This document shows positions 9,553 to 58,655 of a stretch of DNA of 64,000 nt, one piece after another. The translations under genes and the position numbers were made by a program. Source of the stretch: Antedon mediterranea (lineage: Eukaryota > Echinodermata > Crinoidea > Comatulida > Antedonidae); assembly GCF_964355755.1 (NCBI RefSeq), contig NC_092677.1:14344601-14408600 (forward strand), in the 5' to 3' direction. The notes beneath the pieces are model-generated. The model made no database searches, was not told the DNA's origin, and was given only the letters and a program-made list of their open reading frames with translations. The stretch's first letter is position 1, and every line of letters starts with the position of its first letter.

Positions 9553-9589
9553 TTTGTGTAGCTGAAAAAAATGTGAAAACTTGTCAGTG

Positions 9590-14392: not shown

Positions 14393-14579
14393 TAACAACA
14401 TAGATGCCGATGATGAACCTTTAGTCACTCAAACTCATAATAATAATAACACCGCAGTCAGTCAGCATAGTCCATGTTCGGAAAATATGCAACCGAGTGC
14501 TAGCCCTGAAAATACGCTCCATAGTTTTGATCATGTAGATGAAAACCCAACAACCATGAAAACGGGACATAGTAGTGAA

Positions 14580-14893
14580 TCTGTAGCTCTTCGAACGATA
14601 CCGGTATTTGTATGTAAAGGTCAGAAGAGAATTAAAATAAACGCTCTCCTTGATGAGGCAAGCAGCAACAGCTATTTAAATGCGGTTATAGCAGCAGAAT
14701 TAGGACCCGAAGGTCGCACGGAACGGGTGAGAGTTAATGTTTTAAATGGAGTACAAGAAACACTGGAAAGTTCTTTAGTTGAGTTGGGAATCGGCAGTCT
14801 TGATGGTAAAATAATGAAACAGATATCAGCATATACAACAGAAAAAGTCACTGGAAATATGCATGCAGTTGATTGGACCATCAAAAAACAGTA
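14580..14893 (+). pseudogene. Aspartic protease region of the BEL/Pao element
   Basis: After the zinc knuckles comes INALLDEASSNSYLN (about 14636-14680). This matches the BEL-type protease active site (A-L-L-D-x-G/A-S) with the usual glycine replaced by alanine, followed by VRVNVLNG. The frame ends at 14892, just before the nested DNA element. Confidence 0.7.
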
Positions 14894-15023
14894 ATGGAGC
14901 CATCTGAAAAATATTCCGTTCTCAAGAAGAGCAGAAAAAAAGTTCACGCTGCTGACTTACTAATAGGAGCTGACCAGGCCGAACTTATGTACTCAATACA
15001 AGAAGTAAAAGGAAATCCGGGAG

Positions 15024-15961
15024 GCGATTTTTTTTTTCGTACATAAGTTGGGGACCCCCTCATGAAACGTCACAAAATAAACATGAATAATTCATCAGTT
15101 AAATTTTCTTGTTCCGTGTGCACCCAAGCGTATAGCAACAAGAAGTGATTACACAAGTGCCGTACGATTCTAGGCCTATCTCCGCTGTTGTTGTGGCGTG
15201 CGATTTCATAGAAGAATAGCGGCGTTTTGTGTGGATTGTCGAAATAATCAGCCTTTAGTTTATGGTGTTTTTAATATAATTTATTACTAAAGAATTACGT
15301 GTTAAAATTATAGTTTCTTTTAATACTATTAGGCCTAATTATTAGTCTCTAAACCCCGCTCTAAACCCATGTCTATTCTAGTACTGTAGTAGCTGTGTGG
15401 GTGTATGTGAGGTGTGTGTGTTAGGTATGACCAAAGATAGTTACACTATCTTTGGTATGACACAATCCGAGTAATAAGTCAGCAAAATTAAACAATAAAC
15501 ATTACACAAAAATACATTTTTTATTCTCGTGAGTCAAATCTTCCCATCTCATGTGTTCATATATACGCGCATTTTTAAAGTTCCTTTGAGTACATGCATG
15601 TTGTTTGATAATAAAATAGCAGAATTAAAAAAATACAGTACACAATTATACACATTCTTTATTCTTGTGGGTCTAAGCTTTCTGTCCAATGAATTACTAC
15701 TTAGTTTAATGTCTTGCCTAGCTGTCCATTAGCCTCGACTCGACACATTTTGTGTGAAGAAGAGTGCGCGAAGGCAATCACGTGAATTGACTTAGAATCC
15801 TAGGCCTACTGTAGAAAGTATCGTATCGCAGTTGTGTAATCACTTCTTGTTGCTATACGCTTGGGTGCACACGGAACAACAAATTTAACTGATGAATTAT
15901 TCATGTTTATTTTGTGACGTTTCATGAGGGGTCCCCAACTTATGTACGAAAAAAAAATCGC
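15024..15961. mobile_element. 938-bp non-autonomous DNA element with about 145-bp TIRs, nested in BEL/Pao pol
   Basis: Ends GCGATTTTTTTT and AAAAAAAATCGC begin long inverted repeats (TACATAAGTTGGGGACCCC..., ACGCTTGGGTGCACACGGAA...). The 9-bp duplication ATCCGGGAG is at 15015-15023 and 15962-15970. The core has no transposase and holds a small perfect hairpin around 15430-15456 (CCAAAGATAGT...ACTATCTTTGG). Long TIRs with 9-bp duplications fit a MULE-like element. Confidence 0.85.
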
Positions 15962-15970
15962 ATCCGGGAG

Positions 15971-17897
15971 AACCGATAGCTAGGTTAACCCCACTTGGAT
16001 GGACATGTATCGGCAATCTGGGTAGTACACCAACAGAAATTGAAACAAACTTTACATTCTTCAGCAAGCCAAGTGACGAAATAACGAAGTTAATACATCA
16101 ATACTGGGATATACCAAACATACCAGAAAATATTCACACTATCAATCAAGACAAAAAAACAACCCTGGAGACGACTGAAAAATCACTGTCTTACCAAGAT
16201 GGCAGATATAGCATAGGTATCCCATGGAAGAGTGAAATCAAAACTCAGCAAATGCCAGACACCTATCCCGTAGCAGAACAGCTTCTTCGGAACACAGAAA
16301 AAAGGTTACTAAGATCACCCCTGCTGGCAAAATCATATGATGAAATAATTCAAAAACATCAGGAAAATGGGTATATCCGTAAAGTGCCGCCAGAAGAGAA
16401 AACCCCCAACAACGTATGGTATCTGCCTCACTTTCCCATTATACGTCCAGAGAAACAGACTACAAAGATCAGAATCGTATTCGACGCTGCAGCTCAAACT
16501 CAAGGTAAATGTATGAATGACTACATCTTTACCGGCCCAAAACTCCAGAATGATTTGATAAATGTAGTAGCTATTATGTGTGACATAACTGAAATGTACC
16601 TACAAATTCCACTTTCTACTGAAGACCGACCATATTATCATCGCTTTTTGTGGAGAGAGAATGACACAGCTCGAATTCCAGATGTATGAGTTTCAACGAG
16701 TAGTGTTTGGAGTCAATTCATCCCCATTTATGGCACAGTATGTAGTAAAAAGACATGCCCAGCGGTATTGTAACGAATTCCCGCTTGCAGCGAAAACAGT
16801 GCTCAAGAGTACTGTACATACATGGATGACAGCATGGATTCTACAACAAATGTAGAGACAGGGATACAACTTTATAAAGAATTATCACAGCTGTGGAAAC
16901 GAGGTGGAATGCATGCCAGAAAGTGGATATCAAACAAGATTGAGATACTTGAAATAATTCCACAAGATGATTGTCCTACCGAAGTTGACTTAGATAAAGG
17001 GGATCTTCCTCAGGTGAAAACTCTAGGCATTCAATGGTCACCTAAGGAAAATTATTTTACATTCAAAGTAAATACATCAGTAGTTGAAGGAATTACGTGG
17101 ACAAAAAGAGGATTTTTGAAGAGGATCGCATCATTGTTTGATCCTCTTGGACTACTTGCACCGAACCTCATTATAGCAAAGACTTTACTTCAAGAAATAT
17201 GGATAAAGGGGTGTGAATGGGACGACCCCCTGGATTTAAACATTGCCAATAAAGCAGATCAGTGGATTAAGAACCTCCAACAGCTACAAGATTTGCAAAT
17301 TCCACGTTGTGTACGCTATGATCAACAAACAAAAGATGAGCAACTCCATACATTTTGTGATGCATCGGAGAAGGCGTACGGAGCATGTGCCTACTTACTC
17401 TATACGTACATGGATGGAAGTCGTTCATGTGTTCTTGTGGCATAAAAATCTCGAGTAGCACCACTAAAAGCAGTAAGCATCCCAAGACTAGAGCTGATGG
17501 CAGCAGTTGAAGGACTTCAACTAGCACAGAAGATTGGTGAAGCCCTACAAATTGATCAACAGCAGTGGACCATGTGGTCTGATAGTATGGACACATTGTA
17601 TTGGATTAGGGGTATGAGCAGGAGGTTTAAGCCTTTTGTTGCCAATCGAGTAGGGTTAATCCAAGAAAGAACTGATCCTGCACAATGGAAATATGTACCG
17701 ACAAAAGAAAATCCAGCAGACTTGCTCACAAGGGGTATACAGGTATCAGATTTAGCCCAAGAAACTAAGTGGTGGAATGGACCAAACTTTCTGTTACAAG
17801 AAAATTCAGAGTGGCCTAAATGCAAAATATACGCAAACGTAGAGAACAATTGCGAAATGAAAACTTCGTTTAATGAGAACAAGGCCAACAGCCATTA
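15971..17897 (+). pseudogene. Reverse transcriptase and RNase H region of the BEL/Pao pol, broken
   Basis: Recognisable blocks: VWYLPHFPI, RIVFDAAA (about 16474), CDITEMYLQIPL (about 16579), EFQRVVFGVNSSP, the catalytic YMDD at 16819-16830, and SLFDPLGLLAP, typical of BEL/Pao and gypsy-like RT thumbs. RNase H follows with CDASEKAYGA and IPRLELMAA. It needs frame changes at about 16690 and 16820 and carries an in-frame TAA at 17443-17445, so it is dead. ENPADLLTRG near 17706 marks the start of the connection to integrase. Confidence 0.88.
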
Positions 17898-18018
17898 AGT
17901 CGCGTGCTACAATGCATAGTGATACCGGACCGACAGACAGACCGACAGACCGACAAACAGACCGACAGACAGACCGACCAACCGACATAGTGAACTATAG
18001 AGTCGCGTCCACGCGACT
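17898..18018. repeat. GTCGCG-family element (copy 2) inside BEL/Pao pol
   Basis: Starts AGTCGCGTGC and ends CACGCGACT. The middle is a run of GACCGACA-type tetranucleotides followed by CCGACATAGTGAACTATAGA. It is inserted between RNase H and integrase coding blocks. Confidence 0.75.
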
Positions 18019-18039
18019 AAAAATCAAGAGACATTTTTT

Positions 18040-19551
18040 GTTGTTGATAATCAATTTGCAAATAGTCGACTGGAACCTACGCGATATTCGTGTTGGACTA
18101 GATTGAGCAGAGTCTACGCAACCGTTATTCGTTTTCTACAAAACTGTAAATTACCTGTTACACATCGCCACTTCGGAGGAAATTGTAGAAGCCCAATGCA
18201 GACTAGTCAGGAAATTTCAAAGTGAGACATTTGGGGATGAAATAAAAGCTCTAAAATACAAAAAAACAAATTCTCCATGGATCCAAGTTACTACCATTAA
18301 ATCCAATGATTGATTCAGATGGCGTATTAAGGTGTAATGGCCGGATCCGATACAGTGAATGTATTGCCTGGGAAACTAGATACCCTATTATCTTACCGAA
18401 GATCATCATATCAGTCAATTTATAATAATAGATGCACATGAACAAGCATTACATTCGGGGACAAATTATGTTCTATCCCAACTGTCAAGGAAATACTGGA
18501 TTATATCGGCTCGAGAGGCAATCAGAAGCTGGGAGAAAGAATGCTATGAATGCAAAAAGAGAAACGCAAGACCAATTCAGCCAAAGATGGCACCACTTCC
18601 GAAGTATCGATTAGGCACATCTCTCCGTGCTTTTACCTAACATCTCAGTTGATTTTGGTGGACCATTCATCACAATACAGGGACGAGGAAGGGCAAGAGT
18701 GAAAAGATACTTGTGCTTGTTTGCATGCCTAGAGGTACGTGCAGTACATCTAGAAGTAGCTTGGAGCCTGGACACAGATTCATTTCTCAATGCATTTTTT
18801 AGAATGGCGTCAAGAAGAGGTATGCCTGAGCGTTCTATCAGATAACGGAACCAACTTCGTGGGAGGAAATAATGAACTAAAAGAGCTGAGAAACTTGGAT
18901 AATCATATAACCACCGACAAAACAGCAGCCCATGGAGTAAAATGGAGATTCAATCCACCAGGAGCGCCCCATTTCAGTGGAGTGCATGAAGTTATGATAA
19001 AAGCAGCTAAGCGGGCGATAAAAGCGATATTAGAAAACGCTGACATCACTGATGAAGAGTTAATCAGCGCCGTAATTGGACCGGAAGGACTGATAAACTC
19101 AAGACCTCTCCATGCTCTAACATACCAATCGGCAAGTCCTAATGATGTAATTCCTTTGACACCTAATCATTTTATTCACGGTCAGATAGGATCAGAGGGA
19201 AGTTTGCACCCGAAGCTGTAGATCGAACAAAATTTAATTTAAAAAAAACGCTGGAGAAGAGTACAAGAGCTGGTACGACATTTCTGGTGTCGATGGCTAA
19301 GAGAGTATCTGCCGGCTTTGAACTCTAGAAAAAAGTGGAATCGATCAACGAACAATCTACGAGTGGGAAATGTAGTGTTGGTCTACAGCCCCGATACACC
19401 CAGAGGAAAGTGGCCACTTGGTATAATTCAGAAGGTGTTTCCAGCTGAAGACGAACAAGTCCGTGGAGTAGAGGTGAAATTTAATGATGGGATCATAACT
19501 CTACCAGTCAATAAACTATGCCCACTAGAATGCACCGAGGAGCAGAACTGA
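18040..19551 (+). pseudogene. Integrase region of the BEL/Pao pol, broken
   Basis: The catalytic triad is visible in pieces: Asp in SVDFGGP (codon 18651-18653), Asp in SDNGTNFVG (18841-18843) and Glu in GVHEVMIKAAK (18988-18990). The C-terminal part ends with VGNVVLVYSPDTPRGKWPLG and KLCPLECTEE. The triad lies in two reading frames that overlap at 18790-18845, and the zinc-binding N-terminus before 18600 is scrambled. Confidence 0.88.
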
Positions 19552-20595: not shown

Positions 20596-23500
20596 CTAAA
20601 TATTGACGTCTTGTTGTTCCATATCCTCGATTTTGTTTTTGGATTTCGAAACTCGAACTTGAAAAAGGAAAAAAAATATATAAATTATTACATTTTAATT
20701 CAAATGTACTGATGATGATAATTTATAAATTATCACTATAAATGGAAAAACAATAGAAAACAATGTATCCCATTACCGTTTTCAACTTTTGTCGACTTCT
20801 TTCCCCTAAAAAATATAATAAATAAATAAAAATGAATTCAGATTGCTGCGTAGCATTTATTTATATTCCAGACAGCAATTTAATTGCAATCATTGCTTGT
20901 CAGATCCGAAAGTTCGTTGTTTGTCTACAAAGCATTGGCCTAAGACAACTTAGGGTAAGTTTACAGCTTTCGTTCTCTGCGGTTGAAATCAGTTATTACA
21001 GGCGATGATAGTAAACTGCATACTACGTGGGAGGTATTTTTTTTATCAAATGACAAGCATAATATAAACATTTGGTTTACCTGAAAACAAGGTACAATAC
21101 ACTGAATGCAGCGACAATAACGGCGATGACCACGATGACAATCGCCGCTATAACTCCGTCGGAGATGCCGCCGTCATCTTCATCTTCTTCTTCCTCAATT
21201 ACTAATCCTCTTTGTACTTGTTCTATCGGTACGCCGATAGCTGCCGAAATGTCATTTACGCTATCCGTAATAACGGCTAGTAGGGTGTCTTGGTCAAAAT
21301 ATACTACGTAATTAAGAGAAATAATAATCGGTGACTCATGCGAGTTCGATATTGTTAATATTGTTATGTCCATGCGCTGGACATTCGGACGTACTTCCTC
21401 GCTCTATTCCTTTAGGTCGAGGTGACCTGACAATCTAACAACAGGATGCTGAGCTCCGGAGGTCAAAGAGTTTATCTGTGGCTGTGACACGATCAGTTCC
21501 ACGCCCCTTAAGCTTGGTTCCCACTGGCGACAAGACGCAAGGACGTAACGCAGCGCAAGTGTGTTGACCAATGACGAGCGAAAGTTCGAATAATCCAAAG
21601 CTTTTGATTGGTCAACCCGTTTTCTAGTGGGAATCAAACTTTAACAGATACGCATGCCGCGGAGAATATGTAAATAGTAGAGTACTGTTGGTATTTGTCG
21701 CAGTCAGACATAAGATGAAAGGAGCTCTGTGTCTTGTTGTTAGAATGCTTTGACGTGACAATTCTGGATAGGTCGATTGATTCCTCCCTATTATTTGTAC
21801 AGTAACCCAACGATACATACATTAATTTTTTTTAATTAAAATACGAACCTACTACATCTCTCTTTATTCTTTGGTTCAGCAATCGATCAGTATCTCGTCG
21901 TTTACGATTACCAGAGGAGCTCCCGGCTGCACACAGTTCGTTGTCCATTTCGGGTACAGCGTAAATCAGAATGTTGAATGAACTTGGATCTATACTTACG
22001 GGAAACCCATCTCCTACGTAGATGTCGTTTGTATCTATGTAGTTGTACGTTCCATCCCTGAAACGAAGAACAAGAAGATTTCTTTTGTGGTATATAATTG
22101 ATGTACAACATGAAAAATGAATTAAATCAGATTTTGAATAGGTTTTTATGTAGTTTTAATAAAGTTAATCACCGGGAAAAATAATGTTTTCACTTATAAA
22201 ATGATTAAATTCAACCAAAAAGCCCATGGGCTGATCAAAGTGGATAACTATTATGTGACATTAAAATGGTATATTGAACAAAAAAATGTTTTAAGAATTT
22301 TTTTTTAAGGGGACAATGCATCTATAATGATTACGCCTTGGTATGTTTTTTTTTATTATGTTTTGTATTAATTGGGTTGTATGATAGCATTTTAAAAACG
22401 GTAATAACACATGATACAATATAGGCATTTCATTGTTGTTTTCTCACGGGCATTACCCAGTTTTTGATCCACTAGATGGACAGCAGGTTTGGTAATTTTC
22501 GTCCAAATTGCAATATTCGTCAATAGCTGTTTTAACGGCGGCTAGCAAATCTGATTCAATACTGCTCCACTGAAAGTAAAATACAATAAAACCTTCATTA
22601 GGCGTGGTTCCCACTACGGACGCAACGAAATTACGTAAGCGAAACGTAATCAAGTGACCAATGATTGGATAGTCCATCGATTGTGATTGGTCAAATGTTT
22701 TGCATTGTTGTTGCGCTTACGTCCTACCGATTACGTTGCGCCTCCAATTCATCTTACGTACATCTGATTCATTGGATCGTAAGCTTGGTTCCTAGAGACG
22801 CAGCGCAAGGAGGTAGACGCAAATCAAGCGAATTGACCAATAAACCGACAGTTAGCACAGCTAACATAACTTTGTGATTGGTCAACTCGCTTGTGTTTAG
22901 TCTACAGTACGTCCTTGCGCTGTGTCTTTAATGGTATCCAGGCTAGTATAATAATGTTATCTAAATTTTGAAAAAAGCTTTACATATATATAAATTATAG
23001 GCCTATAATTATTTTCGCTCATGATTAATATTGAATTGTTTACTCACCGCTGATATCTCGGCTGTGATAGTGATTTGGACACCGTTTTGAACTTGTTCTA
23101 CGTTTTCTGTAAGATCAAGTAAATAATTTTATAGTAAATTTAGGTCCTTTCCACCATAAGGGTTCGCCCCTGTTGCTTGACTGTGATGTATACAGTAATT
23201 TGTTAAATTGTACGTTTGTGTTTTAAATCGTAAAATCTAGGCATGTGTGTGTGAGACAGATATGTATTCTAAACTGATACTTTCCGTTTCTAGAGAATCA
23301 GACAGGACCTGATTTTCGATCTTCGGCGCATGAAATTTATTATAGGCCTACATTTCATGATTATGGCATAAATTATAACACAAGGGGCGCTATATAACCA
23401 CGTCATATTTTGTCGAGGGTTTTCCACAAGTAACAGCTGTGTAGCTTAAAGGTTAGACTTCAGGTTGTAAAAACCAGAGGGTATGTTTAACAGCTGAGAG

Positions 23501-26500
23501 AGAATAATTAATTCTTGTACCATAGAGTCTATAAGTCCAAGCTTAGAAAAAAACGCTTCTGGGATTAGAGTTTGATACCGATAAGAAATCTAATCCTACC
23601 TTCACAATTATTGCCTTGATATTCACTTGTACATGAGCAACCACACGTGTTGCTGTTGATAGTCCCACCGTTTTCACATTCATTACTGCAGCCAGCAGCT
23701 TCTAAATAAAAATTAAATAAATATACTCAACCTTACATAAATAAAACCAACTTGCACTATCGTACGAATGTGAGATAAAATGTTAATTCAAACTTCAAAC
23801 AAAAACTTTTAACAAACACCTTTAACAAAAACCTGAATTCATTATTCACACATCACATCATAATTTCATTTCATTTATTTCTCTCATAAACATTATACAA
23901 TGAAAAATGCATATCAATAAAACACAAGGCCTGTTCACACTACACTATTTTGACAACAAATGTGATGTGTCTATATGGGATGATGATGATTTAATTTTAC
24001 TACCATATTTAGGCACATCAATTTTGGACACACCGAACTAGTTTGATAGTGTAGATAGGATAGAGATTTAGTTATTTATCTAGGTTAGTGACCTATTCAT
24101 AAACATTAATTGGTCCATTAAACCAATTTACCCGGGTAAATAGTCTGAACGGATTCACAGTCAATAAAAAAAACATTAAAAAGAGAAAGCAAAAACCAAA
24201 AGTAAACTGAATAATCAACAATCGCCAAGCAATTTACACATCAAACAAATTGGTGTTATGTTAAAGAAAAAACATCTGTAAACAAATATACACAGAATGT
24301 GTAATTAATTCACCAGTAGGCTGTTGATCTTGGGTTAAACCAGTGGTTGACATCGGTTCAATTGATTCTTGCGTTGTACCTGCGTATTTATTTAACATAA
24401 ATGAAACAAACATGGCATTTGGCAACAAAAAACTTATAGCATAGAACAACATTAACACATGCGCTCGTAAAACAGAAACTTGATAGTAATATATATTATT
24501 TTAATACAGTATAATACTGTATATCAATATTTATATGGTTGAAGTTTGACGTTCGAAACAATGTTTCTGCGAAAAAATTAAGAAAATACATTGTGGTAAT
24601 TTGTATCTGCCAGCATAATCTCTGTATTCCTCCTCTGTTTATGCTATTAAAATAGGTAAAAGAAAAGTAAAAGAAATGTTTACATGTTATTAGTTAAAAG
24701 AAATGTTTACATGTTAGTAAGCAAAAGAAATGTTTCAAAAGAAAATATTTTTTGTGTTATTACGTAAAAATCTCAATTCTTGAACATTTATTGGCATAAA
24801 GTGAGTAAAAAGTACAAAGTATATAAGTATGGGCCCAGGTTAGAAGTAGAACTTTTCTCACTAGGACCTACCTAGCAAAGACCCAAAAACAGATTACGAT
24901 TAAACTAACCAAGTTATAATTACAATGTGTTATTAGACACCATTTAAAACTCAGGTACAGGCATGAATATCTGGTTAATTGTACATAAATCAAATATTTG
25001 TAATAGAAATCTAGACGAAAAAACATTAATTTCCCTTAAAATGGTCAAATACAAAATTCTGATATAAAAATCAGGAAGACTTTTTTTCAGTAGTTAGGTA
25101 GTTTAACCTAATGCAATAACATGTCTGGTGACTCCCTAGAAGGTCAAAAAAGATGGTGGATATTCAGTGGATAATTTTTGCTATAGCATAAAAATAAAAC
25201 TCTGAAGTTGAATAAAAATACCAGAAACGTAAAATTCAAGTTAAATTATCTATATTTAATCATCTCATAAGATTTTTTACCACGTCGTTTATTTTTCATA
25301 GCTTTTTAAAAACGCCTCTATATTTACAAACATTTGTGTACAAAAGAATAGAGATTTTGCTGTGTAATTTGAATTACTGATAAGAAAGTGCTTATTTTCA
25401 ACAAGCTCGTGTAACACAAATGAAATCCCAAAAATTATGAAACATAGTCAAACTATACATCGATAATTATTGGAATGTATGATCAATAGAAATTTTTTGC
25501 CCGCACCTGACCTTTAATATTTATACAATTTAATACAAAAAAACAATAGCACGGAATTGTATGTGTTAGTTAAATTGTGGACATGTTAAAGTAAAAGAAC
25601 TGTTTACATGTAAAGTAAAAGAAATGTTTACATGTATATAAACGATATGTTGACATATTAAGTAAACGAAATGCTTACACGTTATTAAGTAAACAAAATA
25701 TTGACATTTTATTAAGTAAAAGAAATGTTGACGTGTTAAGAAAAATAAATGTTGACATGTTAAGTAAACGAAATATTGACATGTTAAGTAAACGAAATGT
25801 TGACAAGTAATGTAAAGAAATGTTGACATGTTAAGTAAACGAAATGTTGACAAGTAATGTAAAGAAATGTTGACATGTTAAGTAAAAGAAATGTTGACCT
25901 GTTAAGTAAAGGAAATGTTGACATGTTAGGTAAACGAAATGTTGACATGTTAAGTAAAAGAAATGTTGACATGTTAAGAAAAATAAATGTTGACATGTTA
26001 AGTAAACGAAATGTTGACAAGTAATGTAAAGAAATGTTGACATGTTATTAAGTAAAGGATATGTTAACATTTTATGAAGTAAACGAAATTTGTACATGTT
26101 ATTAAGTAAAAGAAATGTTACCCAGTTAAGTAAAAGAAATTTTGACATGTTAAGTAAAAGAAATGTTGACCTGTTAAGTAAAGGAAATGTTGACATGTTA
26201 AGTAAAGGAAATGTTGACATGTTAAGTAAAAGAAATGTTGACATGTTAAGTAAAAGAAATGTTGACATGTTAAGTAAAAGAAATGTTGACATGTTAGGTA
26301 AACGAAATGTTGACATGTTAAGTAAAAGAAATGTTGACATGTTAAGTAAACGAAATGTTGACAGGTTAAGTAAACAAAATGTTGACAAGTAATGTAAAGA
26401 AATATTGACATGTTATTAAGTAAAGGATATGTTAACATTTTATGAAGTAACGAAATTTTTACATGTTATTAAGTAAAAGAAATGTTACCAAGTTAAGTAA

Positions 26501-29500
26501 AAGAAATGTTGACATGTTAAGTAAAAGAAATGTTGACATGTTAAGTAATGGAAATGTTGACCTGTTAAGTAAAGGAAATGTTGACATGTTAGGTAAAGGA
26601 AATGTTGACATGTTAAGTAAAAGAAATGTTGACCTGTTAAGTAAAGGAAATGTTGACATGTTAGGTAAACGAAATGTTGACATGTTAAGTAAAAGAAATG
26701 TTGACATGTTAGGTAAACGAAATGTTGACATGTTAACTAAAAGAAATGTTGACCTGTTAAGTAAAGGAAATGTTGACATGTTAGGTAAACGAAATGTTGA
26801 CATGTTAAGTAAAAGAAATGTTGACCTGTTAAGTAAAAGAAATGTTGACATGTTAAGTAAAGGAAATGTTGACATGTTAGGTATAAACGAAATGTTGACA
26901 TGTTAGGTAAAAGAAATGTTGACCTGTTAAGTAAAAGAAATGTTGACATGTTAGGTAAACGAAATGTTGACATGTTAAGTAAAATAAATGTCGACCTGTT
27001 AAGTAAACGAAATGTTTACATGTTATTTAAGTAAAAAGATAACTAAAAGAAATTGTATTCTTCTTGCGTTGTAGGCCTACCTGTGTATATTTTTTACATA
27101 AACATGAATGAAGCTAACATGACGTTTTGGCAACACAAACATTATAGAAAAAAAAATGGAAACTATATTGTAATATCTATATATTAATATTAATACTGCA
27201 TGTAGTTGAGGTTTGAAGTTTGAAAAACAATATTAACAATAATGTTGGGGCGAAAAATTAAGAAAACAAATGGTCGTAATTTGTATCTGTCAACAGCATC
27301 TCTGTTTTCCTTCCCTGTTTATAATCCCATTTCTCACAAAGCCATATTCCGATATTAATAATATTATAATCATAACCATGTCGGTGTGGTTTCCGAAAAC
27401 ACAGCCATCGTCTTCGGGGCTTCCTCCATCGTCGCGACTTTATTCACCATCAGCGTACGATACCAACACCACCCCCCCCCCCCCCCCACCACCAACAAAT
27501 ATTACCAACGCCCTCATCTTTACTGGGTTATTACAATTATGACCTTTGTTATCGTTACCCTGTACATAAAGTGATGAACACATTATAATATGTATATACT
27601 CACCACTATCATCTTCCTCTTCTGTTAAAATAAAAAACAAAAATTATATATTTTGGAATCGTAATTTCGTAGAATCTGACGTGGTCAACTTAGTTAGGAG
27701 AATATCAAATTGGCCTAAATGATTTAATGTTTTACAGAAATAAGTACTTCTTATTTATTTCCATATTTACTTCTTACTCCAATCAATTGGACGTTATTGT
27801 GTCAGAAGTCAATATTTCAACATTGATCATCATGATTATGATTACAATGACGTATTTCATTTCCGTATTTCCTAATTAAAGTGGATTCGTGGACCGTTCA
27901 ACTATTATTATACGCTATAAATAATTACTCTCTTTATAGGTTGGTTTCATGGTTTCGCATCATTCGCACTACTACCGCGTGAAACAAATTTTGACAACGC
28001 GGTGCCATTGGATAGAACGAAATTATCGGCAAGAACGTGAATAATAATATTAATAATTAGCATTTACAGTAGTATTGATAAAAGGACGATAGGAATCAAT
28101 TATACATACCACATACAAAATCATCTGGCAATGCACCTAAAAAAAAACATCTATTGTTTTATCGGTGTTCTATGTAATTTATCCGATTTACAAATAAATT
28201 GATCGCTTGTACATTTCAACGATTTATGAATTCGTTATGTTTATTGATTTAAGAATAAATAATTGTTAACGTTTGTTTTACAGGTGAATTTTCTATTTGT
28301 TTGGCAGGACAACTCTCAAATATCATGGAAAATTACTAAAATGGTGTACATGATCTCAGATATGTACGTGAAATCGGAAAGATTAATCGTTACAATGTCT
28401 AAATTCAAGATAAATGACGTAATTGTGGAGAAGAAAAGCAGAAGAGAGCTGTACTATGTTTATTAAGCTTGGAAATAACACATTAATATTGTAGTAAGTA
28501 CGATCTCTTAATTTTATTTATTTTTTATTTAAATCCTAGTGGCCGTAATTTATTGTTTCTTAAAATATAAACAATAATTCACTTAAGTCATTAAGAAATT
28601 AAGAGGCACTTGTAAGGATGTTTCTATTCGCCTAGTTATTCGCGAGTTGACCAATGACAAGCGAAAAGTCAAATAATCCATCGCTTGTGATTGGACAAAT
28701 CGCTTACGTTACGCTTACGTTCTTGCATTGTATTCACGTGGGAACCAAGCTTAAGTAACTACTGTATTTGAACATACTGTATACTTACTACATTCGTTAC
28801 ACATAAGTGGACATCCTTCTCGTACGTAGTCATAACCAGTGCATTGCGCTGGATACCATCCCGCATAACAGTAGGCATTAGTGTCTTCACATAGTTCTTT
28901 AAAAAAGAAAATAAAGTTTTAAACACTTAGTGTCCCGCAAAGCAACAAAATAAAGTCATAACTTTTAAAGGCCATCTTTCACCGCAAAATAAAATCAACA
29001 AAAACTTCTACAAATATGAAAAAAACCACAAAATAATGATTTTTTTTAAATAAAAAAAGACAAAATAAACGGTTAGGCCTACATTTAAACAGCGGTTGTC
29101 TTCCAGAAAATTGAGTCACGTTTAAAACTTTTTTTCATCTTCAAATTACGATTTATTGGGTAAATATTTACTTTTTCAGGGGATAATATTACGTTAATGG
29201 AAGTGATCGGGTCTAATTGTTGAGTTATTAAGAATTACAGTTCTCGGTCCGATCATGGCATACTTACCAGAGCAGTCATTCCCCATGTAACCTTCAGGAC
29301 AGGTACAGTTGCAGTGAGTTTCACTCAATGTGCCGCAATTGGAACATTCTTGATTGCAAACTGTCGAATTAGAATCATAATATTCGATTAAAGGTAACTT
29401 CCTGGTCCACATACTCAATTACCAAACTGATATTTTGAAACAGCACCATATCAACCAGCGGATCAAATTAGACTTCCGCATTTTGTATTTTCTCCACTAA

Positions 29501-32500
29501 TTATGCAAAATTTGAGATTTAACTACAATGCACTGTCAAGAGTGCTGCAGTACATTTATTTCATATCATGTGACACACACTCGTCCAATCAAATGACAAG
29601 CATCTCTGTTATCTCTGTGTTATAATACCGTATTATTTAACATTATCAATTATAAGTATATACATGAGTGCTTGGTAATGCGTTTTTTGAGTACATGTTG
29701 GAAATAAATAGTAAAAATAAACATACAAATAGGTTTTGGTTAACGAAAGAGAATGCATCATCATTTTTATTTTCAATGTTTCCTACTAATAAATAAATTT
29801 AAACGATTTTTAATTTACCACACGCTTCCTCGTGTTCTGTACACGAACCTGAAACGAAATTAAACAATAATTCAATAACAACACTACTTAAGATTTAATC
29901 AACCTCATTGTGCATAGGCCCACTTAAATTAATTGAAATCCTAACCATGTATTGAGTTGTGGTAGGCTATAACTAGTGTTTAAGAAAACTATATTGTGAC
30001 TATACCGTACTAAGTGTGACTTGTGAACACGGCCACATTATCAAACTTTATGTGACAAAAAGCATGTGATGTGCCCATATATGGACACGATGACGTCATA
30101 TCACTACCGTATTTGAGCACATTACACTTTTGTCCCATAAAGTTTGATAGTGTAGACAGATAATGAAGTTTTGGAGTGTGTCTGTTAATGCTGTTGGCTT
30201 TAGTTTTTTCGTCTATAGTTAGCATGTCGGTATACTGATTATTTTTTAATTACATTACTTTCATTTATTGAAACACTTGATTAGAAGTAAATATTGAGAA
30301 AGGTTGACTGATCTGCTCAAATGTATAAACAATAATAATTATGATGATAATGTCATAATGGAATACAGCGCTTAGATTATTTTAAACACAAATATTTACT
30401 ATTTTTCTTTTTATGTATAGTTTTTCAAAAGTATAACAATGCTGCTAGATATACAAGCGCCACAGATTGTACGTTGACGAGTTTAGGTCTAAACGTATTT
30501 AGTCCACCATCTTAATGTACTTATACATACGGCATTGATTGTTGTAGCATTGTCCTGATCCAGAGGAACACTCAGTACAGCTTGATCCACTAAGGTATGG
30601 ATGTCTCTGGTAGTTACCTCTGTAAAAATCACAATAAAATGTCATATTAAAATATTGGCATGATCGTGCCTATTAGTTACATGAAAGTGTGATGTGCTCA
30701 AATATGGTAGTGTTATGACGTCAACGTATATATATATATATATATATAATGCCATATCATATTTTTTGGCCACATAAAATTTGATAGTGTAGACAGAGCT
30801 AAAGATGGGAGCTTAGCAACGAGCCCAATTGATATTTTAAAAGAACAAATACAACATTTCGAAGGTTTATACGCAAAAAATTTTATAAACCCTGGAAAAA
30901 TTACCTTTGAAAGAAATACCTTTGTAGTTCTATTATAAACAAGCTTTCAGAAATAGAAAAAGAAAATTGTGAAGGTTACATCACTATTGATGAATGTAAA
31001 AAGGCCATTTCAATGATGAAAAAAAAATAAAACACCAGGATCGGATGGTCTAAGTGTTGAATTTTATGTGTTCTTTTGGAATAATATTAAACATTTAATT
31101 TGCGATGCGTTAAATGAAAGTTATAATTCCCAAGAATTATCCTTTTCGCAAAAACGAGGTGTAAATCACCCTTTTGTTCAAGGATGGAGAAAGAGAAAAT
31201 TTGAATAATTGACGTCCCATTACCCTCTTAAACACCGATTACAAAATGCTTGCACATGTATTAAGTAACAGACTTAAAATGGTTATTAAATCAATAGTAA
31301 GTTCAGACCAAAAAGGCTATATAAAAGGCCGTTTCGCTGGTGAAAACATTCGGTTAATAGAAGACCTGCTTTATTATACAGAATGTAATGATATCGAAGG
31401 GGCAATAATTACCTTAGATTTTAAGAAGGCTTTTGATTCTATTAGTAGAGATTTTATGTTCAATGTACTAGAAAAGTTTAACTTTGGAATGTTCTTTTGT
31501 AACTGGGTAAAAGTATTATATAATAAAGTTGAATGTGTCACAGTTAACAATGGTTGGGTTTCAAACAATTTTAAAATGGAAAGAGGTATTAGACAAGGTT
31601 GTCCTCTATCCGCTCTGTTATTCATTTTAGTGGTCGAAGTAATGGCATCTAGAATAAGAAACAAAGATGACTATAAGGGTATTAAACTTCCAAATAATGA
31701 AAATAACATAGAAGCTAGAATAAGCCAATTAGCCGATGATACTGTTTTGTATGTTGGTAATGACAAAAGTATTAAGTCAGCAGTCAGTGTAATTGAACTT
31801 TTTTTGTAAAGTATCTGGAATGACACTAAATAAAAAAAAACAATGCTTTTTGGATTGGTAAATGGAAGAACAGAATAGATAGGCCTTTAGAATTAAATTG
31901 GGTAAAACACCCGATCGAAATTTTAGGCATATATGTAGGGTATAATACAGAAGAATGTACCAGAAAAAACTGGGATGTTAAATTAATAGAGCTAGCAACG
32001 ACTTTAAAGCAATGGAATGCTAGAAATCTCTCAATTTTTGGTAGAATAATAATCCTGAAAAGTCTTGCACTATCTAAATTAACATATGCTGCAAATATCA
32101 CTGATGTTCCAAAATATGTATATACACAAGTTACAAATCTAATATATAATTTTATTTGGAACAATAAAAGGGAAAAGATAAAAAGAAAAACTCTAATTGG
32201 TGATGATGAGATGGGAGGCATTAAAATGCCTGATTTTACTCTTCATGTTAACGCACTCATGTGTGGCTGGTTAAAAAAAATTATGAATGATGATGGTGCT
32301 AAATCGAAAACTATTCCAATGTATTATATTAAACAAATATGTGATGTTAATGTTTTACTTAATATGTCATGTTATAGCATTATTGATGTTAATTCTGATA
32401 AAATTCCACGGTTTTACAAAAATATGATAAAAGCCTACATAAATTACAACAGAATCTCTAAAAAAAACCTGAAACTTATAACGATATAATGAATGAGCAA

Positions 32501-35500
32501 CTGTGGGGAAACCACTACGTTAAACTAAAAAAAAAAACGCTTTTCTACAAGCATTGGATTGACAGTGGCATTATCAGTAGTATTAAAGACATTGTTAATA
32601 AGAACACTTTTTTAACATCAAACGAAATACTGGTGAAGCTACAATGTAAAACAAACTGGTTAAATGAGTATTTGTGCATTGTTAAGGCAATACCCATTCA
32701 ATGGAAACGTGTTATTAAGGAGGTAGATACTTTCAATTGTGATGATAATGATGAGTTAGTTGGGACCAAGTATGAGATTAATACTTATACCAAATTAATA
32801 TACTCATGGTTTGTGAAAGAATATTTCATTATTCCAATGTCACAATTAAAATGGGAAGAGTACTTGAATGAGAACAACATAGATTGGAAAACATCTTGGT
32901 TACGGAAAGTATGTAAAATGAAAGATAAGAAATTAGCACAATTCAATTATAAGATGTTACATAGAATACTGCCGACCAACAAACGGCTGTATCAGTGGAA
33001 AGTTAAGGAAACACAAACGTGTGACAAATGTGGAGAAATTGAAAATGAAAATCATTTGTTTTTTAGTTGTAGATTTATTCAGAAATTTTGGAGGAAAATG
33101 CTTAGTATCTTTGTAAGTTTAAACCACAATAATATATCAATTAAACAATCAATACTAGGAACGGGAGATAAGCTAATAGATTACATTTACACTTTTGCAG
33201 CATTTACTATTTATAGAATAAAAATGTTATCAGCACTAAATAAGCCAGTGGGTAAATCGTTATGGAATTCATTTAAAAGCAATATGTGGTATATAACATT
33301 GAATGTGAAACATATAACAATAAAGAAACAAATATAGAAAAATGGATAGCTTTAAGAAATACTATTATGCTAATATAATTTCTAATTTGATACGATTATC
33401 AGAAAAGGAATTACTGTGATACGGGTTACTGGTGGTACTGAGCTATTATTGTTTTTTATTTTTTATCATGTATATAAATATATTGTATAATCCGGGTTGT
33501 AAAATGAAAACAAGCAAATGAAAATGTGTGAACTATTTTAAAACGGGATAGATGATAATGATGATCCTGTCAAGTGTATAGCAAAATATAAGAAAATTAA
33601 TGAAAAAAGGAGTAATACAGAATTCGTATATGTAAAAATGTTACTTATGAACTGTAACTACATTTACAAGTTAAATAATACGATTTTATGTAATATGAGA
33701 TAATATGAATGTGAATTAAAGTGGTGTTTGCGCCACAAAAGAGAAGAAAAAAAAGTGTAGACAGAGCTTAATACAAATGTGAGGAATTTTACAATAGTTG
33801 ACTATATCGAATCGATTTTCGAATGTTATTTTTTGTTCGAAACATATAATAAAAATAAACTTACGCAGGCCCATAATTACACGTAAGTAACCAGGCATTT
33901 GTTTGCCCCTCGCTTGTTTCCGAACAGAATGTTATACCACAGCCTACTGCATAGGAGTCAGCCCAAACAACCTGCAATCAAGACAATCGGTGCATTGAAA
34001 ATTCCGCTAACTATATTAGTCATTATTATTCAGATTAAAGCTTGGTTCCCACGCAAGGACGTAAGCTGCGCACGTACCGCAAGTTAATTAGGCCAATCAG
34101 GACCGTCGCCAGTTATTGGTCAACTAGCATTCGGGGGAATTTGAGCTTTCTTTTTAAAGATGTGTAGGCCTATTATCTATACTTTTTAATTTAATTATGA
34201 CTTTCTAACCTGGGTATAATGTCCACAAACGCCGGTACAAGCCCTTGATTCGTACGTATACATGCTCACTTCATTGTACCAGGCTTGCGTAGCACCGACT
34301 CCATCAGGTTGGACATCGGCAGTACCGCTGCCAAGCCATAGGTTTTGCCCTATCGGATTAAATACAGATGTTGTGTCGCTGTCTGGTTGTCCATGATCCC
34401 AAGTACAAGTGTCCGACCACTCTTGAGCCAATGTCGCCAAATCATCATCCCATTTCTATGTTTAATTAATGTAAGTGAAAGTCAATGACATTCAATAATA
34501 TAAATTGAATAACATCACTATTTAGAGTTTTAAAAATGTTAGCGTTGTGCGAGAGTTTATTAAGTGTCTGTGAGCATGGAGCTATAAATAGCTCCATGCT
34601 GTGAGTAAAGTAAAAAATATATACATACATCTAGAAAACTAACTACCAATTCATTTATATGTCTAATTTTCTCATTCCTATTTCGTATTTTCAATTATTA
34701 TAATCTTTTTTTAAAGAAGTCCTACACCATATTTTCGAAGTGCTTATTTGGCGCAATTTTGTGATTTTTTTCTAATATTATTTATTCATTATAAATAAAG
34801 TCCCAAATTCTTATGTTTAATTAATATTATAAACAACTTAAAACGCGAGTAAGTCTACGTTAGCGAGACTACTATTTTCCTAATTAAATGATACCATTAC
34901 CAAACACTTTAATAATTAATTATGATCTTTCTGCAACGACCCATAGTATTTGATTAATTGCAGACGAAATCAATACATCGAGTGTTCAAAGCTACCCTAT
35001 TAGACAGGCGTTGGTAATCTGATGGTGAATTATTTATCAGTTTTTATAGGATTACAGCCCTTATACAACTATGTTATAAGGTTGCAGTACAAACATGTTG
35101 TTGGGGTTTTTCGGTAACTATACTACGATGTTTGCCGTATCAATTAGCTGTGTTGATGTATTGATTTTGATACTAATGATCTAAAGAGTAAAAAAGAGCA
35201 ATCAATAAGTTAGTCATTTAGCTGATTCTAGGCAGCAAAAGTCATACTATGTACAGTATCATGTAACATTGTGTGACTCGACCCCACGTTTTCCCGATTC
35301 AAGCCCCCCGGCGCCCAGACCTCTAGACCACAGAGCTTTGGCTGATGGCTAGAAATAGGTTCAAGTCCCACATGAGAATTACTTGCAAATGTATTCACAA
35401 ATGTACTTATTGTACAATTACGTAAGAATGAACAAACATCTGATCAATTAACTTAGCTCCATAACGTATAGTTTAAAAGTACTTATTATATCATCCTATT

Positions 35501-38106
35501 TTTAGTGTTTAAACAAATTATTATAGCCTAAAGGCCAATTTACACAGACGAGTGGTTACGGTAAGCGCGTAGGTTGTCCCACGTACAATTTGTATCTATC
35601 CTTTGTGGGTTTCCGCTCATCCGCCCTTTTTGTAAATGGTTGGTAAGAAATACTGTATATAGATAGACAGATTCTATATTGTTTTCCGCTTACTGTTTCC
35701 GACCACGTTAGACGAGACTATTATTTTCCTAATTAAATGATACCATTGCCAAACACTTTAATAATTAATTAGGATGTTTCTGCAACGACCCATAGTATTT
35801 GATTAATTGTAGACGAAATCAATACATCGAGTGTTCAAAGCTACCCGATTAGTAGACAGGCGTTGGTAATCTGATGGTGAAATATTTATCAGTTTTTATA
35901 GGATTACAGCCCTTACAACCATGTTATAAGGTTGCAGTACAAACATGTTGTTTTCGGGAACTATATGCCTACCACGATGTTTGCCGTATCAATTAGCTGT
36001 GTTGATGTATTGATTTTGATACTAATGATCTAAAGAGTAAAAAAAAGCAATCAATAAGTTGGTCATTTAGCTGATTCTAGGCAGCACAAGTCATACTATG
36101 TACAGTATCATGTAACATTGTGTGACTCGAACCCACGTTTTCCCGATTCAAGCCCCCCCGGCGCCCAGACCTCTAGACCACAGAGCTTTGGCTGATGGCT
36201 AGAAATAGGTTCAAGTCCCACATGAGAATTACTTGCAACATGTATTCACAACTGTACTTATTGTACAATTACGTAAGAATGAACAAACATCGGATCAATT
36301 AACTTAGCTCCATAACGTATAGTTTAAACAAATTATTATAGCCTAAAAGCCAATTTACACAGACGAGTGGTTACGGTAAGCGCGTAGGTTGTCCCACGTA
36401 CAATTTGTATCTATCCTTGGTGGGTTTCCGCTCATCCGCCTTTTTTGTAAATGGTTGGTAAGAAATACTGTATATAGATAGATAGATTATATTTTGTTTT
36501 CCCGCTTACTGCTTCCGACCGCTCGAGTAAATTGTCCTTAACCTTAACGCCATATAGAAAACAAAAACAAACATACTGACAGAACAATGTAAACCAATGA
36601 GGCAGGATTACCTAAATGTTATAAAAACAAAATATCAGTCGACACGGGCTCTCCACAAAGAAATACATACAAAGAATAACATATTTTTAACAATTTAAAA
36701 TTGCATGAAAATTATATATTTACCTTTGAACAATACTATGAAAGCCCCAGTGGTATAATGGTTAGGACAACTGCATATCAAGCAGACGGTCCGAGTTCGA
36801 CTCTCGGTTGGGGCGACCTTTTCTCATTCTCACAGATTTCCTCATCTCTATCGTTTCAAATTAATTAATTAAATTTCAGTATATCACCGGACGGTTTAGA
36901 ATTAATGTTCTTTGCCTAATGTGTTTACCTTAAATCAGTAAAATATGTCTTAATACTACGTTTGAAAGAATTACAATTAGTTTAATAACATGTGAATCTT
37001 TATCATAAAACTTTTCTGAAATAATCAATACATTCAGTACAAAAAAATAGGTAAATAATTTAGTTACATCAACGAGAAGGACACTTAATGCATACGGTAC
37101 ACTGTACATCTGAATAAAAACATTTTTTATTAAAAATGCAATTATCATCACACGCGATGTCATACTTAAGTAGTTTCATACAACTTTACAAATATTAGTT
37201 CTATTGGTTTTTTATAATTTTAAATAAAAATCAATGATCTAAAAAGCAATGCGATCATTTGTTAGGTTCTTAACTTTGCATCAATAAGTAATTAAATTAA
37301 AAAGTATGTTAACATCAATTACAAACGTACAGGCCTAGTGAAATTATAAATCTATTATTAACAATATAATTTTTTTTTTGAGAAATGTCTATAATTTGAT
37401 GGGAATACGTGTTCGTAAGACACTTTTTATCACCGAATTCTCATCCATCTCATCATGTTGCGGGCCTATCTTAAATTTGAAAAAAAAAATAAATGGAATA
37501 ATGAAAGAATATCAACTCTGAAAGAAAACAGAATTGATGATAATCGGAGAGCATTCTCCAATTTTGATATAACCCTAATCCTTTTATTTTTATTTGATGT
37601 TATGTGTACAGTAATTATCAATTACCATGGTAATAAACAATAATTGATTCTTATAACTGGTAAATGTCTGGTGTTTATTCGTTTATTTTCAAATTAATTA
37701 AATAGATCAATTTAAATTAATTAAATAATGTTACTTAAAAACTTTTAATGTTAGAATAAATTTTATTATAACGTTTCATGTACCATACGTTGATACCCCA
37801 GAAATTAGCAATGGCAAAAAGAGTGATTAAATTGCAAACAAAACTTGCCATAAATATCATATCCGATGCCTCCGGATTTACTCCTGATCTCAACTCATTG
37901 TGTTTGTCCAAAATCGCTTGTATTTCACTGTTTGAATATACCGTAGAGCGTCTTCTTCTTGAGTTAACTGTATCATTAGCTCGTTGCGTACTACCAACAT
38001 ATGGGTTAGGGTCTATTACTCCTACTGATGTGTAGATGATCTCTTTTGCGTAGCAAATACAACATACCCACGCTAACAACGGGATTACACACTGTCCTGC
38101 TCTCAT
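20596..38106 (-). CDS. CAP-EGF-ShKT-EGF single-pass membrane protein, 17 coding exons
   Basis: Exons: 38106-37849, 34455-34210, 33971-33865, 30619-30531, 29848-29819, 29360-29268, 28896-28789, 28136-28110, 27621-27604, 24379-24314, 23701-23600, 23106-23048, 22569-22457, 22057-21853, 21403-21081, 20805-20777, 20657-20596; 1935 nt with stop, 644 aa, all phases agree. Signal peptide about 1-20; furin-type RRRR at 50-53; CAP/SCP domain about 60-235 (HNELRSG, CTWDHGQ, NLWLG, signature GHYTQVVW across exons 2/3); EGF about 245-274; ShKT about 276-310 (six Cys); acidic and Ser/Thr linker 311-347; EGF 350-381; unrecognised ectodomain 382-589 with RKRR at 490-493; acidic stretch; transmembrane 590-614; basic tail 615-644. 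Least certain are the exon 15 acceptor and the exon 14 donor (21853 or 21856). Exon 1 uses a GC donor. Known: CAP domains are mostly secreted; function here unknown. Confidence 0.82.
21509..21642. mobile_element. PIF/Harbinger-like MITE (family 1)
   Basis: Left end TTA then AGCTTGGTTCCCACTGGCGA, right end TCTAGTGGGAATCAAACT then TTA. Contains GACCAATGACGAGCGAAAG. It lies in intron 14 of the CAP gene. Confidence 0.7.
22115..22335. mobile_element. MITE (family 5)
   Basis: Shares TTCACTTATAAAATGATTAA, CATTAAAATGGTATATTGAA and a terminal GGGGACAATGCATCT with the copies at 7804-8092, 47633-47815 and 57645-57985. Lies in intron 13 of the CAP gene. Confidence 0.6.
22600..22935. mobile_element. Two neighbouring PIF/Harbinger-like MITEs (family 1)
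   Basis: First copy about 22600-22745 (GCGTGGTTCCCACTACGGAC ... TTGCGCTTACGTCC), second about 22780-22935 (AAGCTTGGTTCCTAGAGACG ... CGTCCTTGCGCTGTGTC). Both contain GATTGGTCAA. They lie in intron 12 of the CAP gene; right ends are decayed. Confidence 0.65.
23931..24062. mobile_element. MITE (family 2)
   Basis: Starts with CACTACACTATTTTGACAAC and ends with ACTAGTTTGATAGTGTAGAT; inner GATGTGTCTATATGGGATG. Lies in intron 10 of the CAP gene. Confidence 0.65.
24355..24650. repeat. Duplicated intron segment, copy 1 (includes part of CAP gene exon 10)
   Basis: Shares with 27055-27330 the order TTCTTGCGTTGTA, GGCAACA, AAAAATTAAGAAAA, GTAATTTGTATCTG and CTCTGT...CCT...CTGTTTAT. The two copies flank the minisatellite. 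Confidence 0.75.
24650..24740. repeat. Small outlying cluster of the 24-bp minisatellite unit
   Basis: Three or so units of AAAAGAAATGTTTACATGTTA. Separated by about 830 bases from the main array at 25571-27035. Confidence 0.7.
25571..27035. repeat. 24-bp minisatellite array, about 60 units
   Basis: Unit ATGTTGACATGTTAAGTAAA plus AGAA, with variants (CTGTTAAG, ATGTTAGG, AAACGAA, AAAGGAA). The left 250 bases are irregular, with ATTAAGTAAA inserts, while 26100-27000 is nearly regular. As 24 is a multiple of three, long open frames arise on both strands by chance; these are not genes. The array lies in intron 9 of the CAP gene, between two copies of one intron segment. Confidence 0.93.
27055..27330. 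repeat. Duplicated intron segment, copy 2
   Basis: Counterpart of 24355-24650 with a decayed copy of the exon 10 acceptor (minus strand ATACACAG|GTAGGCCTACAAC). No usable donor follows because the minisatellite begins instead. Confidence 0.7.
28640..28755. mobile_element. PIF/Harbinger-like MITE (family 1), right part
   Basis: GACCAATGACAAGCGAAAAG, ATCGCTTGTGATTGG and the right end CACGTGGGAACCAAGCT then TTA. Left end decayed. It lies in intron 7 of the CAP gene. Confidence 0.65.
30020..30166. mobile_element. MITE (family 2), well preserved
   Basis: Inverted ends ATTATCAAACTTTATGTGAC and CATAAAGTTTGATAGTGTAG. Inner GATGTGCCCATATATGGACA and GATGACGTCATATCACTACC. It lies in intron 4 of the CAP gene. 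Confidence 0.75.
30683..30800. mobile_element. MITE (family 2), target of the LINE insertion
   Basis: GTGTGATGTGCTCAAATATG ... TTTGATAGTGTAGACAGAGC with a TA repeat of about 22 bases inside. The LINE begins immediately after it and the last 15 bases of this MITE are repeated on the far side of the LINE. It lies in intron 3 of the CAP gene. Confidence 0.75.
31246..31809 (+). pseudogene. LINE reverse-transcriptase core fragment
   Basis: 187 open codons covering RT blocks from about motif 2 to the LADD catalytic box. It continues with frame breaks into 31830-33337. See the LINE entry for motifs. Confidence 0.85.
32489..33337 (+). pseudogene. LINE ORF2 C-terminal fragment
   Basis: 282 open codons with WLRKVCKMKDKKLAQFNYKM, LPTNKRLYQW and the cysteine/histidine block near 33020-33070. 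This is the C-terminal portion of an L1/Tx1-type ORF2; not intact with the RT core. Confidence 0.8.
34037..34115. mobile_element. PIF/Harbinger-like MITE (family 1), left part
   Basis: AAAGCTTGGTTCCCACGCAA then GGACGTAAGC. Only one end is recognisable. It lies in intron 2 of the CAP gene, between exons 2 and 3. Confidence 0.55.
34856..36520. repeat. Tandem duplication, period about 849 bp, in CAP gene intron 1
   Basis: Copy 1 about 34856-35703 and copy 2 about 35704-36520 align almost throughout (for example GCAACGACCCATAGTATTTG, AATTAGCTGTGTTGATGTAT). Each copy carries a family-B SINE-like stretch and ends in a family-4 MITE. Confidence 0.9.
35315..35400 (+). repeat. tRNA-like SINE fragment (family B), duplicated copies
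   Basis: CTCTAGACCACAGAGCTTTG, GGCTGATGGCTAG and GTTCAAGTCCC, repeated at 36170-36245 as part of the tandem duplication. Related to 3520-3610 and 56570-56690. Confidence 0.5.
36345..36542. mobile_element. MITE (family 4)
   Basis: Left end GCCAATTTACACAGACGAGT, right end CCGCTTACTGCTTCCGACCG then CTCGAGTAAATTGTCC, imperfect inverted repeats. The sister copy at 35530-35705 lies at the end of tandem copy 1. Confidence 0.65.
36744..36930 (+). repeat. tRNA-derived SINE (family A) with complete tRNA-like head
   Basis: Head 36744-36814 folds as a tRNA: acceptor GCCCCAG/TTGGGGC, T-arm CCGAG/CTCGG with loop TTCGACT, four-base-pair anticodon stem CTGC/GCAG with loop ATATCAA (nominal anticodon ATC, Asp-like). 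The tail after it is the same as in the minus-strand copy at 7279-7420. A truncated head recurs at 63352-63425. The repeat tail and further copies make a SINE more likely than a working tRNA gene. Confidence 0.75.
37847..37848 (-). other. Non-canonical GC donor of CAP gene intron 1
   Basis: Minus strand reads TTTATG|GCAAGT; exon 2 opens with AAATGGGATGAT after ...CATAG. Only the GC donor keeps the CAP frame (MIFM|KWDDD). The paralogue has ATG|GCAAGT at the same codon. Confidence 0.75.
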
Positions 38107-52688: not shown

Positions 52689-52690
52689 GC
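52689..52690 (+). other. GC donor of second CAP gene intron 1
   Basis: CAGTATATG|GCAAGT; exon 2 begins GTTTGGGACGAC after ATCATTAG. Same position and same six bases as in the minus-strand gene. Confidence 0.75.

Positions 52691-58651: not shown

Positions 58652-58655
<4 letters not shown>

Follow-up and report, generated by a model that had tools for sequence, protein, structure and literature searches.

CAP proteins form a widespread family whose members are for the most part secreted. Research on them has dealt chiefly with secreted factors of venom, reproduction, and immunity, and to our knowledge the action of CAP proteins at membranes is unsettled. Human GLIPR1 is membrane-anchored, and we know of no EGF, ShKT, or furin-site ectodomain in this protein. 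The CAP-ShK type II proteins CreCAP-ShK 4-7 of the mollusc Cumia reticulata carry EGF and ShK modules mixed behind a signal peptide (accessible part of PMC6409789), and CLEC18 is described as CAP, EGF, EGF-like, and lectin domains (accessible part of PMC11103991). ShKT transcripts of the annelid Glycera, CAP+ShKT transcripts included, vary in transmembrane regions and extra domains (PMC4202326, in excerpt), while excerpts of two further papers report a starfish CAP protein of PI16 type (PMC10448888) and surface-bound GLIPR1L1 in sperm-egg adhesion (PMC6824042).

The window analyzed here, i.e., the whole stretch of 64,000 nucleotides (C8:14344601-14408600, within a searched genome of 354 Mb on 18 contigs), contains on its minus strand what is probably a single gene for a type I membrane CAP protein. 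The core of CAP, hinge, EGF, and ShKT, which a local family of genes has in common, would here be followed by a second EGF and then by an orphan ectodomain with a transmembrane anchor. The gene's chain of 17 exons runs from window position 38106 to 20596 and comprises 1935 nt and 644 aa with all splice phases in agreement. We could rebuild this chain from signal peptide to stop exactly as the preliminary description had given it, and the domain order proposed there (CAP, EGF, ShKT, second EGF, ectodomain, transmembrane helix, basic tail) holds in the rebuilt protein. The N-terminal half is laid out as signal peptide, pro-segment with RRRR, CAP with GLIPR1-like hinge, EGF, ShKT, and a DFVC micro-exon, and the C-terminal half begins with an acidic and Ser/Thr linker and the second EGF, followed by an orphan ectodomain that contains furin-like sites, the transmembrane helix, and a short tail:

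Exon 1, 37849..38106, minus strand: signal peptide, pro-segment of ca. 30 aa with RRRR, and CAP start; GC donor gcaagt
Exon 2, 34210..34455, minus strand: CAP core WDDDL...GQNLW...GHYTQ, with Pfam and PDB matches and paralogues
Exon 3, 33865..33971, minus strand: CAP, VVWADSYAVGCG...CNYGP, with Pfam match and paralogues
Exon 4, 30531..30619, minus strand: CAP end and cysteine-rich hinge, with PDB match and paralogues
Exon 5, 29819..29848, minus strand: micro-exon SCTEHEEAC, with homologues in L015, L016, and L017
Exon 6, 29268..29360, minus strand: first EGF with seven cysteines, with paralogues
Exon 7, 28789..28896, minus strand: ShKT module with six cysteines (ShK E=0.009), with paralogues
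Exon 8, 28110..28136, minus strand: micro-exon ALPDDFVC; similar exon after ShKT in L015, L016, and L039 (by eye)
Exon 9, 27604..27621, minus strand: acidic micro-exon EEEDDS, with a coding score only jointly with exon 10
Exon 10, 24314..24379, minus strand: Ser/Thr/Gln linker, the least certain exon
Exon 11, 23600..23701, minus strand: second EGF with six cysteines
Exon 12, 23048..23106, minus strand: ectodomain
Exon 13, 22457..22569, minus strand: ectodomain with three cysteines
Exon 14, 21853..22057, minus strand: ectodomain with one cysteine and furin-like RKRR and RIKR
Exon 15, 21081..21403, minus strand: membrane-proximal ectodomain, acidic stalk, and transmembrane helix; alternative start 21376
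Exon 16, 20777..20805, minus strand: basic cytoplasmic segment
Exon 17, 20596..20657, minus strand: cytoplasmic tail and stop

All introns are GT-AG except intron 1, which is GC-AG (15 of 16 GT-AG), exons 5-11 are flanked by phase-1 introns, and an AATAAA at 20551 starts 45 nt past the stop codon. A first-pass model from open frames, 1797 nt and 598 aa long with no break in phase, contained 14 of these exons; the full chain adds exons of 27, 18, and 66 nt and an exon 15 that is 27 nt longer. The acceptor of this exon lies at 21403 or, 27 nt further in, at 21376, and both keep the frame. It is not pyrimidine-rich, as is also true of the purine-rich acceptor of exon 10, whose first 14 nt fall within a duplicated intron segment. 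Agreement of phases is by itself weak evidence because exons can be chosen to fit, and the recurrence of exons 1-8 in paralogues gives the model stronger support. We distinguish exons 1-8, which are well supported, from exons 9-17, which are reasonably supported by phases, splice sites, and a modest coding signal. As far as can be told from the DNA, this locus is a real gene that had been assembled correctly.

The CAP head matched the Pfam CAP model over its full length (positions 1-117 of 117) with E=2.9e-18 and 67.3 bits against a cut-off of 21.1, and GLIPR1 (PDB 3q2r) was the best solved match for CAP and hinge together (E=6.2e-41 over aa 65-234; both with the 598-aa model). Judged by these matches, the CAP assignment is certain. 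GHYTQVVW at aa 164 and CNYGPAGNY across exons 3 and 4 correspond to GHYTQ.VW and CNYGP.GNY, which we take to be the named signatures of the CAP superfamily. The cavity tetrad of CAP proteins is His-Glu-Glu-His, though it is not required of all members. Here, the positions are H107, Q123, E148, and H165, so that the full tetrad is not present, and in the alignment it is the Glu of GEN in GLIPR1 that is Gln in our gene. GQN was found in nine of the 12 CAP rows of this genome and GEN in three, and a tree of the 12 rows splits the nine GQN rows, this gene among them, from the three GEN rows; L021-L023 cluster together in it, and L042 forms a long branch. Gln in place of Glu in the cavity may change metal or lipid binding. 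Scripted motif scans found the basic site RRRR at aa 50, in the pro-segment ahead of CAP, and two N-glycosylation motifs at aa 44 and aa 261; RVRR stands at the place equivalent to RRRR in L016 and L017 and is absent there in L015. For the 598-aa protein, Pfam gave neither a Crisp/ICR domain, the mark of the CRISP subfamily, nor a C-type lectin domain at E<=1.

Behind the CAP head, the Pfam scores are lower. Domain searches of the kind the preliminary description had proposed confirmed CAP, whereas ShK and both EGFs stayed below their cut-offs: the ShKT module alone reached E=0.009 (17.0 bits, cut-off 20.9), the second EGF alone E=0.06 with EGF_2 (14.2 bits, cut-off 22.1), and the first EGF alone E=2 (9.3 bits, same cut-off). 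The identities of these modules rest on cysteine pattern and on paralogues, and the ShKT of L015 does pass the ShK cut-off with 22.1 bits. In the genome-wide ShK list, which the ShKT modules of the CAP genes do not reach with their low scores, 12 of the 24 listed matches lie in one region, C8:18744439-18768488 (G000), far from the CAP loci.

With the first 344 aa as query, the genome showed 46 matching exons at E<=0.01, a figure that counts the gene's own; 40 of these lie on C8. Exons 1-7 all have exon-by-exon paralogues. The closest are three genes at C8:7.84-7.90 Mb (L015, L016, and L017/L039) on the same contig, which share the identical core order of CAP, hinge, micro-exon, EGF, ShKT, and DFVC; the L016 gene continues in L017. 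In all three, the exon after ShKT ends in DFVC plus at most two bases, like exon 8 (PDPDFVC in L015, EDADFVC in L016, DSDFVC in L039; by eye). Since all three genes of this cluster have a counterpart of exon 8 behind ShKT, the window gene runs on beyond ShKT, and Cys319 in exon 8 evens the cysteine count to that point (26 with it, 25 without). What follows the DFVC exon differs when read by eye: L015 has PTETPCPCTRHKPPGV and then a stop, i.e., a short Cys tail, and the L016 and L017/L039 genes have many near-identical EGF exons and end in TAYCPCY, whereas our gene has its transmembrane ectodomain. No membrane anchor was seen by eye in the three genes. L015, L016, and L017 have a GT donor at the position of intron 1, unlike the GC of the window gene. 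In L016 and L039 (C8:7.87-7.90 Mb), the near-identical EGF exons come with near-identical introns (by eye), which suggests that the exons were recently duplicated in tandem or underwent gene conversion.

Further loci vary the same modules. L041 (C4:20.80 Mb) reads by eye as CAP, hinge, EGF, ShKT, EGF, EGF, and a Thr-rich stretch, with an end that is hydrophobic and GPI-like or else read-through. L042 (C8:14.26 Mb) has CAP, hinge, EGF, ShKT, EGF, EGF, ShKT, and a final ShK-like exon, and L040 has ShKT, EGF, ShKT, and a ShK-like end with a CAP match upstream. L021-L023 carry CAP domains of this group, L021 and L022 together with an EGF-like exon, and no ShKT was found at these three loci. The CAP-EGF-ShKT-EGF order is therefore not unique, since L041 and L042 have it as well, and the core and the order through the second EGF are common to several loci. 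What is particular to the window gene, by these matches, is the ectodomain with its transmembrane anchor, which was not found elsewhere in the genome. Within the window, a broken CAP copy lies head to head with the CAP gene (52416-61432, plus strand) with exons 1-5 recognizable and, by eye, the same GC donor gcaagt after its first exon. Exons 2 and 3 are each spread over two frames, and neither an EGF nor a ShKT turned up by tblastn (E<=1) within the 40 kb that follow, so we reject it as an intact sister and consider it a divergent one that is decaying as a pseudogene.

Signal peptide and transmembrane helix were called by Kyte-Doolittle hydropathy, where windows above 1.6 start at two places, aa 6-7, in the signal peptide, and aa 583-599, and nowhere else. 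The 19-residue window at aa 591-609 peaks at 3.31, with an acidic stalk before the helix and basic residues after it, and the membrane anchor claimed for this protein is thus borne out by a window of transmembrane type. A script located furin-like sites in the ectodomain at aa 490 (RKRR) and aa 502 (RIKR). The ectodomain itself (ca. aa 382-585) matched no Pfam family (best E 0.15) and no relative among PDB sequences (best E 0.21), both best hits being judged chance. When the C-terminal 254 aa of the 598-aa model (exon 12 on) were searched against the genome at a cut-off of E 10, the hits were five of the gene's own exons and five matches around the helix (E 0.07-7.4; best local realignments with L038, at 31% over 49 aa, and with L034). 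No relative appeared, and the membrane-proximal 66-aa stem matched only itself. We therefore call the ectodomain an orphan by sequence, in this genome and against Pfam and PDB sequences. The SEA domain that had been suggested for it was not confirmed: the Pfam SEA model found nothing in aa 382-590 at E<=10, and it matches four genome sites at E<=0.001, none on C8. Three candidate relationships found no support: a stretch of L034 that looks SEA-like, aligned to the membrane-proximal ectodomain (equalled by 401 and 431 of 1000 shuffles in two runs), an internal repeat of the ectodomain (equalled by 98, 550, and 185 of 1000 shuffles in three pairwise tests), and four Pfam matches in the transmembrane region of the 598-aa model (E 0.25-0.87), judged chance.

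These results place the gene among known systems. It resembles the molluscan CAP-ShK type II proteins in having a signal peptide, CAP, and then mixed EGF-like and ShK-like modules in the 17-exon model, in its spacer before CAP (30-50 aa there, ca. 45 aa here from the likely signal cleavage), and in gene and module duplication within its family; unlike it, those are salivary-gland proteins for which the available text describes no ectodomain or transmembrane helix (PMC6409789), and the transmembrane-type window here departs from their secreted, anchor-free form. CLEC18 shares CAP followed by EGF modules and, in the available text, ends in a C-type lectin domain and has no ShKT, whereas our protein has ShKT; the comparison with CLEC18 in the preliminary description was apt, including the lectin end (PMC11103991). 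The Glycera transcripts share CAP and ShKT, and the accessible part of that paper does not give our gene's order or its ectodomain (PMC4202326). The earlier remark that no described family with this exact order was known needs to be narrowed, given L041, L042, and the CAP/EGF/ShK mixes of molluscs (PMC6409789, in part), and it holds for the ectodomain and helix, which lack a match in this genome, Pfam, and PDB sequences. The exact CAP-EGF-ShKT-EGF-ectodomain-transmembrane order was not found in the parts of the open-access literature searched, a negative that says little about print as a whole because only open-access literature was covered. We conclude that the gene is a membrane-anchored variant within a set of shuffled CAP-EGF-ShKT genes and not a new class of system.

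Since no ectodomain relative was found in this genome, exons 12-17 lack comparative support. We scored coding potential with a codon-usage model built from 1554 codons in exons of the family, leaving out exons 8-17. The null consisted of stop-free intron windows capped at 120 nt and is therefore conservative for longer pieces. The fraction of intron windows scoring as high was 0.0005 for exons 9-10 jointly and 0.0715 for exon 10 alone, 0/2000 for exon 11 (favored because the training set is cysteine-rich), 0.065, 0.013, and 0.0715 for exons 12, 13, and 14 (0.059 jointly), 0.126 for exon 15, and 0.089 for exons 16-17. Every tested piece of exons 9-17 lies above the intron mean, and taken singly, exons 10, 12, 14, 15, and 16-17 score modestly, with 6.5-12.6% of intron windows as high. 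These modest scores and the missing homologues in Pfam, PDB sequences, and this genome are what one would expect if exons 12-17 were chance open frames ending in a chance hydrophobic run, yet six consecutive in-phase exons with mostly consensus splice sites, the 3.31 window between acidic stalk and basic residues, and a stop with AATAAA 45 nt on make such a non-coding half very improbable.

A division into two adjacent genes, the upstream one for a secreted CAP-EGF-ShKT protein with exon 8 or 9 as its last and the downstream one for an EGF-ectodomain-transmembrane protein with its own signal peptide at ca. 24452, deserves more weight, though we consider it unlikely. With phase-1 introns on both sides of exons 5-11, either half could stand alone. 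L015 stops soon past its DFVC exon, and an ATG at 24452, with an in-frame stop upstream at 24503, opens the hydrophobic stretch MLFYAISFLLPNAMFVSFMLNKYA in frame into exon 10. However, this stretch lacks a basic start and has Lys at -3 of its sole likely cleavage site, a position subject to a residue rule in signal peptides. The ATG also sits within a segment, 24366-24642, whose duplicate at 27061-27322 lacks it (66% over 297 columns with gaps; 70 nt at 84%), and the two copies differ by gaps not in threes, as introns would. Moreover, L041 and L042 have the second EGF directly after ShKT, and no paralogue-like CPC end exon turned up for the upstream gene: the CPC motif of secreted paralogue ends is absent from 28788-20596, while the same scan finds this short motif in L039, at the end of the L016 gene, and twice in L015, once outside the end exon and thus by chance. 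A single gene could still have alternative ends, with a short secreted form, e.g., by read-through of exon 9, next to the long membrane form. Unspliced exon 9 reads 54 codons to a stop (ORF 27440-27643), and skipping keeps the frame because exons 5-11 are all phase 1-1, but the read-through tail is unlike the paralogue ends (by eye), and we rate this variant of the single-gene reading as rather improbable.

What we infer for the function of the single-gene product is as follows. The closest paralogues end as secreted proteins, and the window gene would instead have added the second EGF, orphan ectodomain, and anchor, with secreted to anchored as the presumed direction of change. A furin-like protease would remove the pro-segment at RRRR ahead of CAP and might cut again at RKRR/RIKR in the ectodomain, upon which the CAP-EGF-ShKT head would either stay bound in a two-chain surface protein or be released; shedding via these two sites is plausible. 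The CAP head presumably has a lipid or protein as its partner, and anchoring would then place a secreted factor at the cell surface as a protein of adhesion or recognition. The full proposal is tentative and rather doubtful in its entirety: a furin-processed transmembrane CAP-EGF-ShKT-EGF protein, its ectodomain of a new or very divergent SEA-like fold, exon-shuffled from secreted CAP paralogues and serving either as a CAP ligand that is tethered and can be shed or as a receptor holding its own cleaved CAP head. The family illustrates exon shuffling between phase-1 introns, and one genome in which the same head carries swapped ends (short tail, EGF arrays, EGF/ShKT modules, transmembrane ectodomain) offers a natural comparison of soluble and tethered forms.

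The window also holds various other elements. Intron 1 contains a tRNA-Asp-like gene with anticodon atc (36744-36815, plus strand), which a stretch near 63350 resembles by eye, and a tandem duplication (34864-36502) with three stretches of 96-97% identity spaced 815-849 bp apart. LINE-type reverse transcriptase remnants lie on the plus strand inside intron 3 (31213-33337; RVT_1 E=1.4e-25) and at 49253-51776 (RVT_1 E=5.4e-17), and a 24-bp minisatellite of ca. 60 copies (25576-27025) occupies the intron between exons 9 and 10. A BEL/Pao-type retrotransposon (13227-19551, plus strand) matched Pao peptidase at E=1.5e-32 in one of the three frames scanned and not in the other two. Downstream of the CAP gene, likely exons of a Cys/Met-metabolism PLP enzyme (6961-9609, minus strand) include one with PF01053 at E=2.4e-6 (26.8 bits, cut-off 27) and another that had no match when scanned. 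The motif AAGCTTGGTTCCCAC occurs 14 times in the window with at most two mismatches against 0.09 expected, several times in introns of the CAP gene, and perhaps represents the ends of a small DNA transposon family.
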